From NCBI RefSeq assembly GCF_030063145.1, contig NZ_JASISM010000002.1, forward strand, positions 62,001 through 126,000: a stretch of 64,000 nt of DNA. The letters run 5' to 3'. Each line of letters begins with the position of its first letter. Within the stretch, counting starts at the first letter, position 1. Shown piece by piece: positions 500-6,299 of this stretch. A program made the position numbers and the translations under genes. The DNA comes from Cryobacterium sp. PH31-L1 (GTDB lineage Bacteria; Actinomycetota; Actinomycetes; Actinomycetales; Microbacteriaceae). The notes under the pieces were generated by a model, which saw nothing but the letters and a program-made list of their open reading frames with translations, did not search any database and was not told where the DNA came from.

Positions 500-1072
500 A
501 TGAACAAGCTTCTCGTTAGCGCTATCGCCGGTGCCGCCGGACTGACCCTGCTGTTCGGCGGCGCGGGAACGTTCGCGCTCTGGAATTCCAGTACGTCGGT
601 TGCCGGCGGAACGATCACCTCCGGCGCCCTGACGGTGGTCGACAACGCCGCCGCCGGCGTCTGGAAGAGCGGTGCCACTGAAATCACCCTGAGCACGTAC
701 AAGATCGTGCCCGGTGACGTCCTTACCTACACGAAGAAGGTTGACATCACGGCGACCGGCGACAACATGGTCGCGACTCTGGCCGTTGCTCCAGCGAGCA
801 TCACCGCCACGAGCGCAACCAACACCTTTGACGGGAAGCTCGCGAGCTACATCACCAAGAGCGCCCAAGTGTCGATCAGCGGCATAGGCATCACCGGTGC
901 CGGCCCGACGTACACGATCACACCGGCCGGTACCGGCGTTATCGCTCGCGCTGCAGTGGTTACCGTCACCCTGACGTTCCCCAAGAGCAACGTCCCAGGA
1001 GCTGAGAACGATGCCATGCTCGGCTCGGTCAACCTCGGCGCCCTCGCCGTGACCCTGACGCAGACCACCTAG
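500..1072 (+). CDS. Exported protein with SipW-type signal segment (camelysin/TasA-like)
   Basis: A 190-residue secreted protein. The start is the ATG at 500 (MNKLLVSAIAG), placed by GAAAGG 9 bases upstream; the frame stays open further upstream, but without a ribosome binding site. Residues 5-30 are a hydrophobic signal segment ending in GTFALWNSSTSVAGGTITSG. This is the hallmark of the alternate-signal family related to Bacillus TasA/camelysin, in which a SipW-type peptidase cleaves and a beta-rich fibre or adhesive protein is released. The rest is Thr/Ala/Val-rich and predicted to be beta sandwich, with no cysteines. A SipW-like peptidase is encoded downstream at 3101. The fibre-forming role is inferred from family membership. 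Confidence 0.8.
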   Translation: MNKLLVSAIAGAAGLTLLFGGAGTFALWNSSTSVAGGTITSGALTVVDNAAAGVWKSGATEITLSTYKIVPGDVLTYTKKVDITATGDNMVATLAVAPASITATSATNTFDGKLASYITKSAQVSISGIGITGAGPTYTITPAGTGVIARAAVVTVTLTFPKSNVPGAENDAMLGSVNLGALAVTLTQTT

Positions 1073-1088
1073 TTCTTCACCACCTCCT

Positions 1089-1145
1089 GCACCGCCCCTG
1101 GTGTGCCCATCACCCGACGATGGGCACCCCCGGGCGGTGCGATTT
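1089..1145 (+). terminator. Strong nested hairpin between first and second exported-protein genes
   Basis: The arms GCACCGCCC (1089-1097) and GGGCGGTGC (1132-1140) enclose a second pair, GTGCCCATC (1103-1111) and GATGGGCAC (1119-1127), followed by GATTTT. It looks like a partial terminator or an mRNA 3'-stabilising structure that would make the first gene the most abundant product. Confidence 0.65.
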
Positions 1146-1187
1146 TCCCTCCGGCTCCTCCGTTCGACCAGAAAGCGAGGTGATCAC

Positions 1188-1796
1188 ATGAAGACAGCCC
1201 GTGGACGCCACACCGCTTCGCCGGTCGAACGTCGTCGCCACCGTGCAGTGCCGACCCTGCGGCTACGCGCGCGGGCCTTGGTCTTGGCCGCAGCATCCAC
1301 TCTTCTGGCAGTCGTGCTGGCCACGACCGCTGCCGGCGGCACCTACGCCCTTCTGAATTCGAGTGCCGCCACCCCCGCGGCCACGATATCGTCGGGAACG
1401 GCCACGATGACAGTCTCGGCCCTCGCCCTTCCCGCCGTCGCCCTGTACCCGGGACTGGTGATTGCCGCCCCCGTCACCGTCACGAATACCGGTGACGTTC
1501 CATTGGCCGTGACCCGCTCCTCGCTCGTCGCGCCGGATGTCACTTCGGCCCTGTCCGATTCGCTCACCATCGGTCTAGCCGTCGTCGACAGCTCGGCTAC
1601 GTGCACGAGCGCGGTCATCCCCAGCACCAGCGGAACATTTGCCAGTGCGCCGTCGACGGCGGTGGGCCTGACGCTTGCTAAAGCCGAGTCCCGAACAGTA
1701 TGCGTGCTGGTCTCGCTGCCGGCGGGCGCCCCGAGTCTGAGCCAGTCGTCGTCCGCTGCCAACTTTTCCGTCGTCCTCACCGGGGTGCAGGCCTAA
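1188..1796 (+). CDS. Exported protein with SipW-type signal segment, second copy
   Basis: A 202-residue protein starting at the ATG at 1188, chosen because GCGAGG precedes it by 7 bases. The N-terminus is long and very basic (KTARGRHTASPVERRRHRA), followed by a hydrophobic stretch and the motif GGTYALLNSSAATPAATISSG. That is the same cleavage-region pattern as in the protein at 500. The mature part is a Ser/Thr/Ala/Val-rich beta domain with two cysteines near its middle and end. It shares its operon with the downstream lectin-like protein and the peptidase. The precise role is unknown; a structural surface role is inferred from context. Confidence 0.72.
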   Translation: MKTARGRHTASPVERRRHRAVPTLRLRARALVLAAASTLLAVVLATTAAGGTYALLNSSAATPAATISSGTATMTVSALALPAVALYPGLVIAAPVTVTNTGDVPLAVTRSSLVAPDVTSALSDSLTIGLAVVDSSATCTSAVIPSTSGTFASAPSTAVGLTLAKAESRTVCVLVSLPAGAPSLSQSSSAANFSVVLTGVQA

Positions 1797-1799
1797 ACC

Positions 1800-3101
1800 A
1801 TGACCCGCTCACGCCGCCAGGCTTTCGCTCGACCGAGAGGGCAGCGTCACACCGCAGCCCTGCTCGGCACGGTGCTCTTTCTCGTGCTCGCGGCGTCCGG
1901 CGCCTCCCATGCCGCCTGGACCACCGCGGCATCCACAGCCACCGGATCCGTGACCTCGGGCACGGTCAGCATCGCCCAATCCGGCTACGACCAGCTCAAA
2001 TTCGACTACTCGGCGAGCAGTCTGGTGACAACGAAACCCGTCACCGTGAGTAATGGCTCGGTGCCGTCGACGTACACACTCACACTCGCTGGCACGTCGG
2101 CGACGGCGGGCCTCGCCGCAGCGATCACGGTGACGACCTGGCCGGTCGCCTCCACCGCCCACTGCACCTCGTCGACGACCTTGCCCGGAAGCGAGACGGT
2201 GCGAACTTGGACGAACGGAACCACACTGACCGGTTCGGTCGCCGCAGGTTCGTCCGTTGTGTACTGCGTGCGCACCTCGATGTCATCACCCATTCCGGCT
2301 GCCTACGGCGGTGGCCAGGTTGCGGCCCGGCTCGACCTGACCGCCGCGGTCGGCGCGAACTGGAAGGCCGCCCCCGTCACTGTTGCCGTGGCCCAGACCG
2401 TGCCCGACAGGACTGCTCCGACCGCGCCGACCGGCCTGACATCGTCATCGACAACGGGTGCCGCCACCACACTCACCTGGACGGCGGCGACCGACAACGT
2501 TGGCATCGCCTCGTACCGCGTCTATCGCGACGGGGAGCGGGTCGGGCCGGACATCACCGGCAGAACCTATACCGATACCGGTCTCAATGTCGGCACAACC
2601 TACAGCTACACCGTCGACGCGCTCGACGCGGCCGGCAACTCCTCGACCATGTCATCGGCCGTCACTGCGACCACCAGCCAGTCACCGTCGTCGACCAGCT
2701 GGTACCGAGTCAAGAGTGGGGGCCTGTGCGTCACGGGTTCCGCCAACGCGAACGGACCCGTGACAGTGCAGGTATGCAACGAGTCGCTGACCACTCAGCT
2801 CTGGCAATATGACTTGGTCAACCAGAGCGATTACCTCATCAACTCGCAGGCAGCGGCCGGGCTGGCTTGGCAGCGCACCACCACGGCAGCTGTGGTGATG
2901 GCGACACGCAACACGCGTGACTCCAGCCAGCAGTGGGGCGGCACAGTGTCGGGAAACGGTTTGTACCAGTTCGTCATGCAAGTGAACAAAAACAAAACGG
3001 AATGCATCACGGTGCCGAGTTACACAGCCGGAACCGCGCTGCAGACGCAAAGCTGCAACGCCGGTAGCGCCCAGCAGTTCACATTGACGGCGGCGAACTG
3101 A
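1800..3101 (+). CDS. Exported SipW-type protein with FN3 and ricin-type beta-trefoil (lectin) domains
   Basis: A 433-residue protein that starts 3 bases after the preceding stop. Residues 1-55 form a basic N-terminus, a hydrophobic segment and HAAWTTAASTATGSVTSG, again the alternate-signal pattern. About residues 60-200 are a beta-rich domain. About 202-295 are a fibronectin type III domain (PTAPTGLTSS ... YRVYRDG ... YSYTVDALDAAGNSS). About 299-431 match a ricin B / CBM13-type trefoil, with GLCVTG, LWQYDL, QQW and QQF repeats. The combination suggests a fibre-associated protein that binds polysaccharide. Domain calls are by eye. The stop overlaps the peptidase start by one base, so the two are translationally coupled. 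Confidence 0.75.
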   Translation: MTRSRRQAFARPRGQRHTAALLGTVLFLVLAASGASHAAWTTAASTATGSVTSGTVSIAQSGYDQLKFDYSASSLVTTKPVTVSNGSVPSTYTLTLAGTSATAGLAAAITVTTWPVASTAHCTSSTTLPGSETVRTWTNGTTLTGSVAAGSSVVYCVRTSMSSPIPAAYGGGQVAARLDLTAAVGANWKAAPVTVAVAQTVPDRTAPTAPTGLTSSSTTGAATTLTWTAATDNVGIASYRVYRDGERVGPDITGRTYTDTGLNVGTTYSYTVDALDAAGNSSTMSSAVTATTSQSPSSTSWYRVKSGGLCVTGSANANGPVTVQVCNESLTTQLWQYDLVNQSDYLINSQAAAGLAWQRTTTAAVVMATRNTRDSSQQWGGTVSGNGLYQFVMQVNKNKTECITVPSYTAGTALQTQSCNAGSAQQFTLTAAN

Positions 3102-3679
3102 TGGGGCACGGTTCGAAGGGGGCCAGACCGACTGGACTGCTGCAAGCCCTGGGCCTGGCCGTCAGTGGTGCGCTGCTTCTTCTCGTGGTTATGCTGCTCG
3201 CTCTGCTGGTCATCGTGCCCAAGATCACGGGCGCAACCCCATTGACTGTACTGACGAGCTCAATGGAGCCACACCTGCCGCCCGGCACCATGATCGTGGT
3301 CGGCCCCGTCAACACCGACGACCTCGTAATCGGAGATGTCGCCACTTATCAGATTCACTCGGGCGAGCCGGCCGTTATCACCCACCGCATCACCGCGATC
3401 AGCTCATCCACGGACGGTAGCCGAAGATTTCAGTTTCAGGGAGACAACAACAGTCTTCCCGATCCGGACCTCGTGCTCTCCACCCAGATTCAGGGGCGAC
3501 TGTGGTATTTTTTTCCGCTGATCGGCCATGCAAACAACTTCGTCAACGGGGCGAGCCGAGCGGTGATCATTCCGGCCGTGGCCCTGGCGCTGCTCGGATA
3601 CTCGGCTGTAATGCTCGTCACCGGAGTCCGTGCCAGCCGCCGTCGTCCTCGCGGCGCCCATCGCCACTCGGCGGTCTGA
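3101..3679 (+). CDS. Signal peptidase I, SipW / ER type
   Basis: A 192-residue membrane peptidase. One transmembrane segment spans about residues 17-40. The nucleophile region is VLTSSMEPHLPPG, with predicted catalytic Ser54, and the second catalytic region is VITHRI, with His95. A Ser-His pair instead of the usual bacterial Ser-Lys pair is characteristic of the SipW/archaeal/ER subtype. QGDNN (box E-like) follows, and a second hydrophobic segment ends the protein. SipW-type enzymes process TasA/camelysin-like precursors, and three such precursors lie directly upstream in the same operon. The ATG overlaps the previous TGA by one base. Confidence 0.88.
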   Translation: MGHGSKGARPTGLLQALGLAVSGALLLLVVMLLALLVIVPKITGATPLTVLTSSMEPHLPPGTMIVVGPVNTDDLVIGDVATYQIHSGEPAVITHRITAISSSTDGSRRFQFQGDNNSLPDPDLVLSTQIQGRLWYFFPLIGHANNFVNGASRAVIIPAVALALLGYSAVMLVTGVRASRRRPRGAHRHSAV

Positions 3680-3682
3680 TCT

Positions 3683-4492
3683 ATGCAGCCGCGTGATACC
3701 CAGCCCCCTATTTGCGAATTCCGCGCACCTGGCCGTCGTCGTGGGCGCCTGCTTGGTGCCGTGGCCTCCGCGCTATTGCTGGCGCTCCCGATACTTGCCG
3801 GTGCGGCCGGGCCGGCATCTGCTGTCGAACCCGAATTCCTGTCAAGTGTTGCCCAGGCCAGCAACGCCCGGCTCGGCGACGTGCAGGTCAGCTCGGACGG
3901 CGCGCACTTCGCGAACAGTCTGCCGACCGATTTGTTCGACTCGTATGGGGCGATGATTCCGAAGGGGTCGATACGGGCGTCCCTGTGGATCCACAACCCG
4001 AGCGACCAGCCCGCGGTCGTGCGGGTGAGTCTGCGCAGTGCGGACGGGGCATCCGCTGGGCTGAATCAGTACCTCACCCTGGGCGTCACGACCCCTGCCG
4101 ACCCGACCGCGCCCACCGTGTCGTTCGCGGGCGACGCGAATTGTGCGGTGCTCGCGCCGGTTCAGCCGCTCGCCGCCGGCGCGACGCTGCGTGCCGAGGT
4201 CAGGGTCGACATGACGAATGTGACCGGGCTGACCGGGCAGAACGAGACGGCGAATCTGGGCCTCGTGGTGGCCCTGCGCGACGCGGTCGCTGGGCCGTTT
4301 TCGTCGTCGGCCTGCGCCGACACGGGTGTGTTCGTCGCAGTTCTGGGGGCTTCGTCCGCGGCGCCGCGGCCGGCCGCCCTTTCCGGCACCGGGGTTGACC
4401 TGCCCGTTCCCGCCATCGTCGGGGGCGTTCTTCTGCTGGGCCTCGGCGTGCTGTTGACGTTCCGCCGTCGCCGCGAACGGAACGAGAACTAG
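3683..4492 (+). CDS. Surface-anchored protein with C-terminal sorting-like signal
   Basis: A 269-residue protein starting 3 bases after the peptidase stop. A basic N-terminus (RAPGRRRGR) and hydrophobic stretch end in GPASAVEP, resembling an ordinary Sec signal peptide rather than the SipW type. The C-terminus reads ALSGTGVDLPVPAIVGG, then a hydrophobic segment, then FRRRRERNEN. This has the layout of a sortase signal (a pentapeptide like the actinobacterial LAxTG class, a membrane span and a positive tail), but the LSGTG match is imperfect, so a plain membrane anchor is possible. It probably anchors or nucleates the products of the upstream genes at the cell envelope; that role is inferred. 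Confidence 0.65.
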   Translation: MQPRDTQPPICEFRAPGRRRGRLLGAVASALLLALPILAGAAGPASAVEPEFLSSVAQASNARLGDVQVSSDGAHFANSLPTDLFDSYGAMIPKGSIRASLWIHNPSDQPAVVRVSLRSADGASAGLNQYLTLGVTTPADPTAPTVSFAGDANCAVLAPVQPLAAGATLRAEVRVDMTNVTGLTGQNETANLGLVVALRDAVAGPFSSSACADTGVFVAVLGASSAAPRPAALSGTGVDLPVPAIVGGVLLLGLGVLLTFRRRRERNEN

Positions 4493-4536: not shown

Positions 4537-5514
4537 CTACGAGACGCGCAGCACGATCTTGCCGCGAATGTGACCCTCCTCGATCAGTCGGTGTGCCGCA
4601 GCGCCGTCGGCGAGTTCGAACACCGCGTCGACGTGCACCCGCACGGTTCCCGTGTCGAGGAGTTTCGAGATCTCGTCGAGGGCTCGGGCGTCGGGGGACA
4701 CCTTGAAACCTGTCGCGCGGCGACCGGCGGCTGCGGCATCCGCTGCCATGGAGGGCCAGCTGCCGGTCGGCGCATTCACGAGCAGGCCGCCCGGGCGCAG
4801 CGCGGCCAGGGATCGGGTGCCGGTGTCATCGTGCACATTACCGATGAGGTCGATCACCGAGTCGACGTCGCGGGCCTCGTCTTCGAAGCGCGTGGTCGTG
4901 TAGTCGATGACCTCGTCGGCACCGAGCTCGCGCAGAAAGTCGAGATTGTGGGTGGATCCGGTGGCGATGACGTGGGCGCCGAGAACGCGGGCGAACTGTA
5001 CCGCGAAGTGACCGACGCCGCCGCTGGCGGCGTGCACGAGCATCCGCTGCCCGGGGGCCGCCCCGGCAAGCCTCACCATGCCCCACGCGGTGAGGGCGGC
5101 GACCGGTACTGCGGCAGCTTCGGCGTGGCTGAGTCGGGCCGGCTTGTGTGCGACGCTCATGCTCGATACTGAGACGTATTCGGCGAAGCTGCCGCCGGTG
5201 CGCGGCACTCGGCCCATGCCGAAGACCGCATCACCGGGCTGCAGCGGTGACGCCTCGAATGCCGCGCGCACGACGATGCCGCTGAAATCGTTGCCGAGAA
5301 TGGTCGGGTAGTTTTCGATCGCGGCGGCGACGCCCTTGCCGGAGCGGGTCTTGGCGTCGATCGGGTTGAGCCCGGCGGCAACGACCTTCACGAGAACCTC
5401 GTCGGAAATCTGACGCGGAAGCGGCCTCTCAGCCAGGTGCAAGACCTCGGGATCGCCGGTCTCGTCAATGACGAGGGCGCGCATGGTCGGCGGAAGTTCG
5501 AAGTCGGTAGCCAT
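4537..5514 (-). CDS. Zinc-independent quinone oxidoreductase-like MDR family protein
   Basis: A 325-residue member of the medium-chain dehydrogenase/reductase superfamily, NADPH:quinone reductase type. Visible features are MRALVIDETGDPEVLHLAER, the GroES-like N-terminal domain with AAGLNPIDAKTRSG and LGNDFSGIV, and the nucleotide-binding motif HAASGGVGHFAVQFARVLGA. The cysteine and histidine zinc ligands of alcohol dehydrogenases are absent. It would use NAD(P)H to reduce quinones or enones. The start is the ATG at 5514 after GAGGG; an in-frame ATG at 5523 is an alternative. It stands alone, facing the surface-protein gene. The substrate is unknown. Confidence 0.8.
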   Translation of the reverse strand: MATDFELPPTMRALVIDETGDPEVLHLAERPLPRQISDEVLVKVVAAGLNPIDAKTRSGKGVAAAIENYPTILGNDFSGIVVRAAFEASPLQPGDAVFGMGRVPRTGGSFAEYVSVSSMSVAHKPARLSHAEAAAVPVAALTAWGMVRLAGAAPGQRMLVHAASGGVGHFAVQFARVLGAHVIATGSTHNLDFLRELGADEVIDYTTTRFEDEARDVDSVIDLIGNVHDDTGTRSLAALRPGGLLVNAPTGSWPSMAADAAAAGRRATGFKVSPDARALDEISKLLDTGTVRVHVDAVFELADGAAAHRLIEEGHIRGKIVLRVS

Positions 5515-5548
5515 GACCCTCATTCTGCTGCATCCAGCTCGCCCAACT

Positions 5549-5618
5549 CTTTCCGGGCCCGGGCCCGGAAAGCGGGCCCATGCTAGATCATGGGCCCAGC
5601 GACCGGGCCTGGGCCCGG
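5549..5618. repeat. GGGCCC-rich intergenic palindrome, copy 1
   Basis: A perfect 24-base palindrome centred on two GGGCCC blocks (5549-5572) is followed by a stem of GGGCCCATG and CATGGGCCC around CTAGAT (5574-5597), then a third GGGCC-rich stem ending near 5618. The middle stem recurs unchanged at 20802-20825, and a diverged copy lies at 25169-25225. It sits just past the end of the YqaJ gene, so it may act in transcription termination or mRNA protection. Confidence 0.8.
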
Positions 5619-5642
5619 TCATGAAGAAAGAGGGGAGCGGGG

Positions 5643-6299
5643 CTAGCGGCGGGCCTGCTGGTCGAGGTTGTCGATCAGGGCGTTGGCCAGGCCCACCAGA
5701 ATCGCGATCTGGTCTTCGTCGCGTTCGATCCAGCGACATTCGGGCGCCGCGGAAACCGGCACGAAATCGAGGTGCTCTTCCCAGACCAGCAGCGTGCGAT
5801 CGGCGCCGAGTACGTACTGCTGCCACCACACCTGCCGCAGATAGCTGCGCGGAATGCTGCGCCACGGCTTGCTCGTGGTCTTGATCTCGGCCAGGTGTAA
5901 ATCTGCACCGATTACGCCGACCCCGTCGGGCGTGGCCAGATGCCGCGGATGCGAGAGCGACCGAAACAGGTTCGTGCTTGGTTCGATGCCGTAGTTCTCC
6001 AGCACCCACGCGGCGATGACCGGTTCCCGGGCCCGACCATGGTCGGTGTAGCTGTTGCCGGAGAAGCTCGTGCCGTGCATTTTGTCGTGCGCCGCGTTCA
6101 CGATGGACTTCGGGGTCGACAGCTTGGCGACATCCGTTGCCGTAATGCCCTGGTTGCGGGCCCGCAACCACGCAACGCGATCGTTCGAGTCGGCGACAAT
6201 GCGCAGGGTGTGCGGTGCCGGCGGCGGTACCAGAACGGATGCCGCGGGGTGCGCCGAAGGCTGATCCAGGTCGAACAGGGACAGCGTGGAATTCGGCAC
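5643..6299 (-). CDS. YqaJ-type viral recombinase family nuclease
   Basis: A 218-residue protein, taking the GTG at 6299 as start (VPNSTLSLFDLDQP). AGAGGA directly abuts this codon, which is unusually close, so the start is uncertain. The frame runs further upstream, but that extension would overlap the lipoprotein promoter. The PD-(D/E)xK nuclease layout is visible: SFSGNSYTDHGRAREPVIAAW, LATPDGV, GADLHLAEIKTTSK (the D...ExK core) and YLRQVWWQQYVLGA. YqaJ relatives are lambda-exonuclease-like enzymes, usually encoded in phages beside a RecT annealase. No phage genes are adjacent, so this is a chromosomal stand-alone copy of unknown role. Confidence 0.78.
   Translation of the reverse strand: MPNSTLSLFDLDQPSAHPAASVLVPPPAPHTLRIVADSNDRVAWLRARNQGITATDVAKLSTPKSIVNAAHDKMHGTSFSGNSYTDHGRAREPVIAAWVLENYGIEPSTNLFRSLSHPRHLATPDGVGVIGADLHLAEIKTTSKPWRSIPRSYLRQVWWQQYVLGADRTLLVWEEHLDFVPVSAAPECRWIERDEDQIAILVGLANALIDNLDQQARR

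Follow-up and report, generated by a model that had tools for sequence, protein, structure and literature searches.

A conserved five-gene cluster in Cryobacterium

The stretch of DNA analysed here, called the window, is 64,000 nucleotides long and comes from Cryobacterium sp. PH31-L1, a cold-living bacterium of soil type (bases 62001-126000 of a 518-kb contig, in a genome of 3.66 Mb). Close to its start lie five genes, at 500-4492, which a first-pass annotation had read as a SipW-type secretion cluster dedicated to a surface fibre. We find a real, conserved cluster, which comprises three genes for precursors with alternate signal peptides (genes 1 to 3), a signal peptidase gene (gene 4) and a gene for a C-terminally anchored protein (gene 5). 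Coordinates are collected in Table 1, with gene starts picked by script. Going from gene 1 to gene 5, the intergenic distances are 115, 3, 0 (an overlap of one base) and 3 bases; this single large gap after gene 1, all others being minimal, fits one operon. No sigma-70-like promoter came out of a simple scan, of a kind that carries no weight on absence. The gene 1 protein is 92% identical to that of Cryobacterium luteum over residues 1-184.

Table 1. Features of the cluster, in positions of the window
Feature	Position	Strand	Length	Description
Gene 1	500-1072	+	190 residues	TIGR04089 alternate-signal protein, proposed major (shaft) subunit; predicted cleavage between A26 and L27-W28; Cys-free
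Stem-loop	1088-1141	+		Directly 3′ of gene 1; proposed partial terminator or 3′ stabiliser raising gene 1 over genes 2-5
Gene 2	1188-1796	+	202 residues	Minor subunit, alternate signal, predicted cleavage between A54 and L55; Cys pair
Gene 3	1800-3101	+	433 residues	Alternate signal (predicted cleavage between A38 and A39-W40), N-terminal beta-sandwich, FN3 at residues 209-289, ricin-type lectin at residues 298-432; proposed sugar-binding end
Gene 4	3101-3679	+	192 residues	Ser/His signal peptidase; Ser54 codon 3260-3262, His95 codon 3383-3385
Gene 5	3683-4492	+	269 residues	Ordinary signal peptide, beta-sandwich with Cys154 and Cys211, LSGTG (4379-4393), transmembrane segment and Arg tail; proposed wall-linked base

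Distribution and co-occurrence of the genes

In NCBIfam, gene 1 falls in TIGR04089 (exp_by_SipW_III, alternate-type signal peptide domain family), with 128.6 bits for a cut-off of 60. Of 199 genomes sampled from the host's family, 83 have a match to this model (82 above cut-off). Across the phylum it was found in 7 of 396 genomes (2 above cut-off), three of the seven, host included, being in the host's family. Two of the three other host-genus genomes sampled (G141 and G193) lack any TIGR04089 match, so that presence of the cluster varies inside the genus.

A pattern scan of GTDB genomes gave 79 further loci, in Cryobacterium, Herbiconiux, Agreia, Microbacterium, Curtobacterium, Salinibacterium, Clavibacter, Frigoribacterium, Naasia, Leifsonia and others. 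Together with the host's own locus these make 80, the best 80 of 188 and not a census, and they are related rather than independent. One record titled Arachnia and one Acidobacteria metagenome-assembled genome would, by what we presume to be their placement, lie outside the family. The gene set recurs across these loci as genes 1, 2, 3, optionally 5, then 4: gene 1 is present in 80, a peptidase near it in 78, and gene 5 in 48 (47 once each open reading frame, or ORF, was assigned to its best family). In the two loci lacking a peptidase (L114 and L130), the contig ends soon after gene 1. Gene 5 precedes gene 4 in 44 of 47 cases, and follows it in the host, in C. luteum and in C. glaciale. At L049 and L120, gene 1 is present in additional copies, or two nearly complete clusters adjoin. 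For the alignments used below, very long or short rows and near-duplicates were dropped, which left 76 of 80 rows for gene 1, 39 of 69 for gene 2, 65 of 76 for gene 3 and 45 of 47 for gene 5.

Genes 1 and 5 also go together in the 199 genomes, where 52 have both, 31 gene 1 only, 1 gene 5 only and 115 neither (Fisher p of 9×10−25, a value uncorrected for relatedness and hence optimistic, with the gene 5 profile split at 80 bits, a limit chosen after seeing the list). The two genes are at most 8 kb apart in 51 of the 52 genomes that have both.

A Ser/His signal peptidase and its likely clients

The first-pass annotation had assigned gene 4 a Ser54/His95 pair instead of Ser/Lys. Both residues are in place (Ser54 in TSSMEP, His95 in ITHRI), followed by a conserved GD; SipW likewise has a Ser/His site. 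Among 78 homologues, Ser is found in 77, and His and the Asp of GD in all. The lone Ser exception is a Clavibacter michiganensis record (L133:11035-11930) in which two overlapping ORFs each carry part of the similarity to the peptidase, perhaps because the gene is broken or misread. Gene 4 scored 71.2 bits on TIGR02228, archaeal signal peptidase I (cut-off 51.85), and matched human SEC11A in the PDB (7p2p, E-value 5.8×10−8). On NF046067, the model of Bacillus SipW, it reached 69.8 bits, far under the cut-off of 190.

The three precursors had been described as sharing a cleavage region of the form xTxALxNSS..TSG. This was true for gene 1; gene 2 reads SSG for TSG, and gene 3, which by eye reads SHA and then AWTTAASTATGSVTSG, does not fit. 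The literal motif, with T or S allowed before SG, is scarce in relatives (1 of 80 for gene 1, 5 of 71 for gene 2, 0 of 76 for gene 3). An initial regular expression, which retrieved gene 2 in only 6 of 71 cases for a background of 20 in 2136, missed that gene and was replaced by a looser form: a hydrophobic stretch, then A-x-[W/F/Y/L], then [S/T/A]G. This looser motif, picked after seeing the data and itself demanding W, F, Y or L at position +2, was found in 75 of 80 gene 1, 58 of 71 gene 2 and 52 of 76 gene 3 proteins, compared to 6 of 78 for gene 4, 0 of 47 for gene 5 and 16 of the 2136 remaining ORFs in these loci. Independently of any motif pattern, MAFFT alignments place a Trp at position +2 of the predicted mature protein in all 76 gene 1 sequences and in 97% of 65 gene 3 sequences. 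For gene 2, the pattern restricted to W/F/Y/L gave Leu in 51, Trp in 17 and Tyr in 1 of 69. Gene 1 also matched TIGR04088, the cognate-SipW signal, with 21.4 bits for a cut-off of 19. The claim of a dedicated Ser/His peptidase with three alternate-signal clients is well supported at the sequence level.

The genome holds two more SipW-type clusters, both outside the window. A pair just upstream (L001:4508-5188 and about 5230-5775, contig 59.5-60.8 kb) encodes a Ser/His-type peptidase (68.5 bits on TIGR02228) and a precursor whose hydrophobic stretch is followed by AYFSDTAQ; between it and the operon lies a gene on the other strand which, from its sequence, we take to be photolyase-like. The third cluster, about 140 kb off on the minus strand (L160:2440-5047, contig about 203.4-206.0 kb), encodes two TIGR04088 precursors, a peptidase with 49.5 bits on TIGR02228, just below the cut-off, and a small protein with AHWTDATF after a hydrophobic stretch. 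These two clusters, the named NCBI family of gene 1 and the hairpin described below go beyond what the first-pass annotation contained.

The products of genes 1 to 3 might be Sec or wall proteins of the ordinary sort, processed by the housekeeping Ser/Lys enzyme while the neighbouring peptidase serves other clients. The host does have a Ser/Lys enzyme (the C31 peptidase, arrangement judged by eye), and its genome contains the two other SipW-type clusters. Against this stand the proximity of the peptidase to gene 1 in 78 of 80 loci and the score of gene 1 above the cognate-SipW cut-off, and we consider it very improbable.

A hairpin follows gene 1

Directly after gene 1, the sequence can fold into a hairpin with a free energy of −42 kcal/mol (z of −5.95). 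Of the 80 loci, 48 have a stem scoring at least 12 within 90 bases of the gene 1 stop codon; for genes 2, 3, 4 and 5 the corresponding counts are 2 of 71, 6 of 74, 3 of 76 and 0 of 47. With simple base shuffles of the same stretches, 0 of 80 passed for gene 1, and 2, 2, 0 and 1 for the other genes. In a second locus set, the median z was −2.8 after gene 1 (46 stretches), compared to −0.06 to −0.5 after the other genes. The hairpin matched no Rfam family at gathering score. By eye, the stems vary in sequence from one locus to another, which fits a terminator-like or stabilising role. The hairpin is also the simplest ground for supposing that gene 1 encodes the bulk subunit.

Genes 2, 3 and 5 share a beta-sandwich domain

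Profiles of the proteins, cut at the predicted cleavage site, were compared with hhalign. Gene 2 matched the N-terminal domain of gene 3 (probability 99.5%, E 8×10−23) and gene 5 (95.5%, E 1.5×10−8), and gene 3 matched gene 5 (72%, E 3×10−5); some gene 2 and gene 3 rows had retained signal residues, and reversed controls stayed at or below 1.5% probability. Gene 1 matched gene 2 with 72% (E 3×10−5), over its first 64 columns only. From these scores, genes 2, 3 and 5 have a common beta-sandwich domain, which gene 1 joins less surely.

Two features recur among these proteins. The first is the distribution of cysteines: mature gene 1 has none in 80 of 80 sequences, like TasA, which is Cys-free. 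Mature gene 2 has two in 65 of 69 and three in 4; the gene 3 N-domain has two in 70 of 76, three in 5 and none in 1; and gene 5 has two (residues 36-215) in 47 of 47. The second is an invariant PG and a C-terminal Gln, common to genes 1 and 2; the Gln is found in 91% of gene 3 and the Pro in 98% of gene 5 sequences.

Known families account for parts of these proteins. Gene 3 has fn3 (32.9 bits) and Ricin_B_lectin (37.4 bits) domains, both above Pfam cut-offs. The FN3 and ricin-type domains first assigned to 1800-3101 are therefore there, and a lectin-bearing subunit is supported. In 65 homologues scanned, Ricin_B_lectin was present in 34 and fn3 in 31; a C-terminal hydrophobic tail was seen by hydropathy in 1 of 76. 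Genes 2, 3 and 5 have no whole-protein NCBIfam family above cut-off (gene 5 matching an anchor domain only), genes 2 and 3 do not match TIGR04089, and gene 2 has no NCBIfam match up to E 1.

A search of 177,635 PDB sequences with the gene 2 profile placed archaeal AbpX (E 0.019 and 0.05) and TasA (0.11 and 0.13) in four of the best six places; the other two were a sialidase (0.025) and CEP192 (0.12). The alignment to TasA begins at the SGT motif, passes through PG and ends at N-x-G; it puts the YPG proline on TasA P62 (5of1 alignment; numbering obtained by taking the 234-residue chain of 8aur as 28-261).

A possible structural likeness of gene 1 to TasA

A model of gene 1 was obtained from an alignment of 76 sequences, in which residues A26, W28, P71, G72 and Q188 are invariant. 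Its predicted local distance difference test score (pLDDT) is 82.5; residues 1-15 and 17-36 are below 50, and ten-residue blocks from 41 on average 76-98. The mature N-terminus is thus loose in the monomer model.

Compared to the PDB with Foldseek, the model found the TasA fibre (8aur) at rank 2, with E 7.8×10−3 and the highest probability, 0.94, among the 50 matches listed. With VIA, TasA came at rank 23 (Z 4.6, root-mean-square deviation 5.8, 142 aligned residues), behind the CanA cannula subunit 7uii in first place (Z 5.8) and another cannula subunit, 9h8b, in third (Z 5.5), in a list that mixes chaperone-usher pilins and unrelated sandwiches and in which any Z under 8 can, by the tool's own statement, be chance.

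The invariant residues bear on the same comparison. According to the available part of Roske et al. (PMC10151520), mature TasA begins at residue 28 and has a conserved ‘proline box’ at the fibre interface, made of F29, P62, Q232 and F200; its donor strand covers residues 28-38 in the accessible text of Boehning et al. (PMC9674648). Gene 1 W28 (position +2 of the predicted mature protein), P71-G72 and Q188 are suggestive of three of these four residues, a comparison in which only the proline was placed by alignment, and for gene 2 only; no counterpart of F200 was located.

The cannula matches call for another possibility, namely that the subunits make up a sheet or tube, such as a coat or an S-layer-like or cannula-like assembly, in place of a thin fibre. 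Cannula subunits hold the first and third VIA places. As those Z values are in the noise range, and the top Foldseek probability belongs to the TasA fibre, we regard a sheet or tube as improbable.

Several searches with gene 1 led nowhere. The profile of the mature protein retrieved from the PDB only clumping factor A (E 0.18) and EchA1 (0.78), both unconvincing, and the profile with its signal retrieved an S-layer protein at E 8.2. On the Camelysin/TasA family PF12389 (cut-off 22.5 bits), genes 1 and 2 scored 11.2 and 11.4 bits, both below cut-off, and the host genome had no match at E ≤ 0.001; in relatives, 40 of 76 members matched at E ≤ 10, the best at 2.5×10−4.

Gene 5 and its C-terminal anchor

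Gene 5, the 3683 protein, ends in LSGTG-VDLPVPAIVGGVLLLGLGVLLTF-RRRR, a tail of LxxTG, transmembrane segment and Arg run; the C-terminally anchored partner described at first is well supported by sequence. LPXTG_anchor (TIGR01167) was matched with 16.3 bits for a cut-off of 15.9 (E 0.012), and nothing else in Pfam or NCBIfam was above cut-off. At E ≤ 0.1, 14 of 45 homologues match LPXTG_anchor and 19 the related Microco_LAVTG model. A C-terminal hydrophobic segment is present in 46 of 47 homologues, preceded by L..TG in 24 of 47 (a count superseding the 26 of 47 of a laxer pattern, which took misplaced matches) and by any ...TG in 34 of 47. One sortase gene was found in the host genome. The co-occurrence of a sortase was considered as evidence and proved uninformative, since 184 of 199 family genomes carry one.

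At the other end of the protein, a median of 7 residues separates the last [AVGST]xA from the core (46 of 47 measured). This leaves little room for a donor strand, and most gene 5 proteins would lack a donor segment. The gene 5 model (pLDDT 78.6) is a sandwich with a C-terminal helix at 242-267. Its structural neighbours are generic immunoglobulin-, PapD- or MSP-like folds, the best being the PorA N-terminal domain (Z 9.3), followed by Caf1M (8.8) and WxLIP (8.2), and TasA was not among the matches listed by Foldseek or VIA. When the PDB was searched with the profile of gene 5, every match had an E of 0.25 or more, and most were transmembrane segments.

Is the product a fibre?

On balance, we lean towards a TasA-like surface fibre as the product of the operon, in which gene 1 would form the shaft, gene 3 the lectin-bearing end and gene 5 the anchored base. 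This agrees in outline with the actinobacterial surface fibre of the first-pass annotation: its peptidase, clients, lectin subunit and anchored partner are borne out by sequence, and its kinship to TasA is suggestive.

Several results weigh against this fibre. The similarity to TasA, though suggestive, stays below strict cut-offs (8aur at E 7.8×10−3; VIA Z 4.6; gene 2 profile to AbpX and TasA at E 0.02-0.13). Foldseek gave the gene 1 model no PDB match at E ≤ 0.001, its VIA scores of Z 4.6-5.8 lie inside the noise range stated by the tool, and the mature gene 1 profile retrieved no TasA from the PDB. Pfam camelysin, tried as a proof of homology, was absent among the families listed (25 of 48) once signal peptides were removed. 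Within the cluster, the profile matches of gene 1 to gene 5 (19%) and to gene 3 (5%) are poor.

The base of the fibre is also concerned. Of the 78 clusters that have a peptidase, 31 lack gene 5, three of these 31 reaching a contig end at most 1.4 kb from the peptidase, and no substitute LPXTG-like or anchored gene was found near the 31; a wall-linked base is therefore not essential, and the role of anchor first given to the 3683 gene fits the sequence of this host without extending to all clusters. The LPXTG_anchor match exceeds its cut-off by a narrow 0.4 bits. No TG motif precedes the hydrophobic segment in 13 of 47 gene 5 tails, so that many may be held by the membrane only. In C. luteum, gene 5 (L073:12335-13009) keeps LSGTG, then has a different short tail devoid of the Arg run, as if the anchor were damaged.

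Some of these points would be accommodated if the peptidase and its three clients were real and the clients did not polymerise, forming instead a lectin complex or matrix, soluble or loosely attached, for which gene 5 would be one docking point. No fibre has been seen; the match of the gene 1 model to TasA is weak, gene 5 is absent from the 31 clusters just described, and a ricin-type domain is carried by 34 of 65 gene 3 proteins. On the other side, the hairpin that 48 of 80 loci have behind gene 1 suggests one subunit in excess, the invariant residues of gene 1 recall those of the TasA interface, and its mature N-terminus is loose in the model. We consider an unpolymerised complex a serious alternative, if an unlikely one.

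Returning to the fibre, its assembly might proceed as follows. Three secreted beta-sandwich subunits carry SipW-type signal peptides, and the dedicated membrane peptidase, with its Ser/His site, would cut before x-[W/L] and free the mature N-terminus. The loose N-terminal segment of gene 1 would act as donor strand into the next subunit, so that gene 1 polymerises as the shaft, and the hairpin may keep its transcript in excess over those of the minor subunits. Gene 3, and gene 2, with a related domain that is probably disulfide-locked and would be able to donate a strand, may occupy or initiate one end of the fibre, at which the lectin domain of gene 3 would bind sugars. Gene 5, with a related fold, an ordinary signal and no N-terminal extension, could accept the last donor strand as the base; its C-terminal tail would keep it at the surface, in this host presumably by sortase through LSGTG.

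In its most specific form, this would be a Gram-positive donor-strand pilus of defined polarity with a covalent wall base: the lectin subunit would give the first strand, the Cys-free subunit would polymerise, and the strand-less, sortase-linked paralogue would accept the last. We put this forward tentatively, as a picture that is more probably wrong than right in at least one of its parts.

Comparison with known systems

A close counterpart is the tapA-sipW-tasA operon of B. subtilis, whose major subunit is likewise Cys-free. In the parts of PMC9674648 and PMC10151520 available, it also has a dedicated signal peptidase, a disulfide-bearing minor subunit (TapA has a disulfide-bonded immunoglobulin domain in the latter), a mature N-terminus with an aromatic residue at +2, and Pro and Gln at the interface. 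The present cluster differs by its four sandwich subunits instead of TasA and TapA, its lectin-bearing subunit, its paralogue with a sorting-signal tail, the hairpin after the major gene, and a peptidase with 69.8 of the 190 bits required by the SipW model. The sipW-tasA/calY/CapP region of Bacillus cereus resembles it in combining several TasA-like subunits and an accessory protein, with heterofilaments (PMC13082335, PMC4292775, as far as their accessible text goes). It differs in that its authors call the system sortase-independent and the AlphaFold model of the CapP N-domain is helical, not a sandwich (accessible text of PMC13082335); the available portions of both papers describe no lectin or LPXTG partner.

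Other likenesses are partial. TIGR04089 includes gene 1, and as a family names one protein of the cluster only. Gene 4 resembles the eukaryotic SEC11 and archaeal signal peptidase I by its scores on TIGR02228 and SEC11A; unlike them, it adjoins its likely substrates, in a genome that also has a Ser/Lys enzyme. The archaeal bundling pili AbpX, best PDB match of the gene 2 profile, and the CanA cannulae, best VIA match of gene 1, are both archaeal and only weakly similar. In the part of PMC12326000 available, the N-terminus of CanA contacts neighbouring protomers of the cannula. We know of no anchor or lectin in either of them.

No description of a SipW-type cluster in Microbacteriaceae was found in the open-access PMC literature (titles and beginnings of abstracts, from partial listings; paywalled papers lay outside this scope). 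Taken singly, the components of the cluster are of familiar types; no system combining a lectin subunit, a sorting-tailed paralogue that lacks a donor strand and a conserved hairpin after gene 1 turned up in the open-access literature searched.

If the fibre is real, many Microbacteriaceae would share one type of adhesive fibre that can be read from their genomes, and on which no paper was found. Such a fibre would illustrate how the TasA-like type may be given a tip and tethered to the wall, and the division into paralogues with and without a donor strand would open the polarity of assembly to direct test. A donor-strand pilus of the kind tentatively proposed would, if confirmed, combine the principle of the TasA matrix fibre with sortase anchoring, while using neither an usher nor a pilin sortase, in a large family of environmental actinobacteria.

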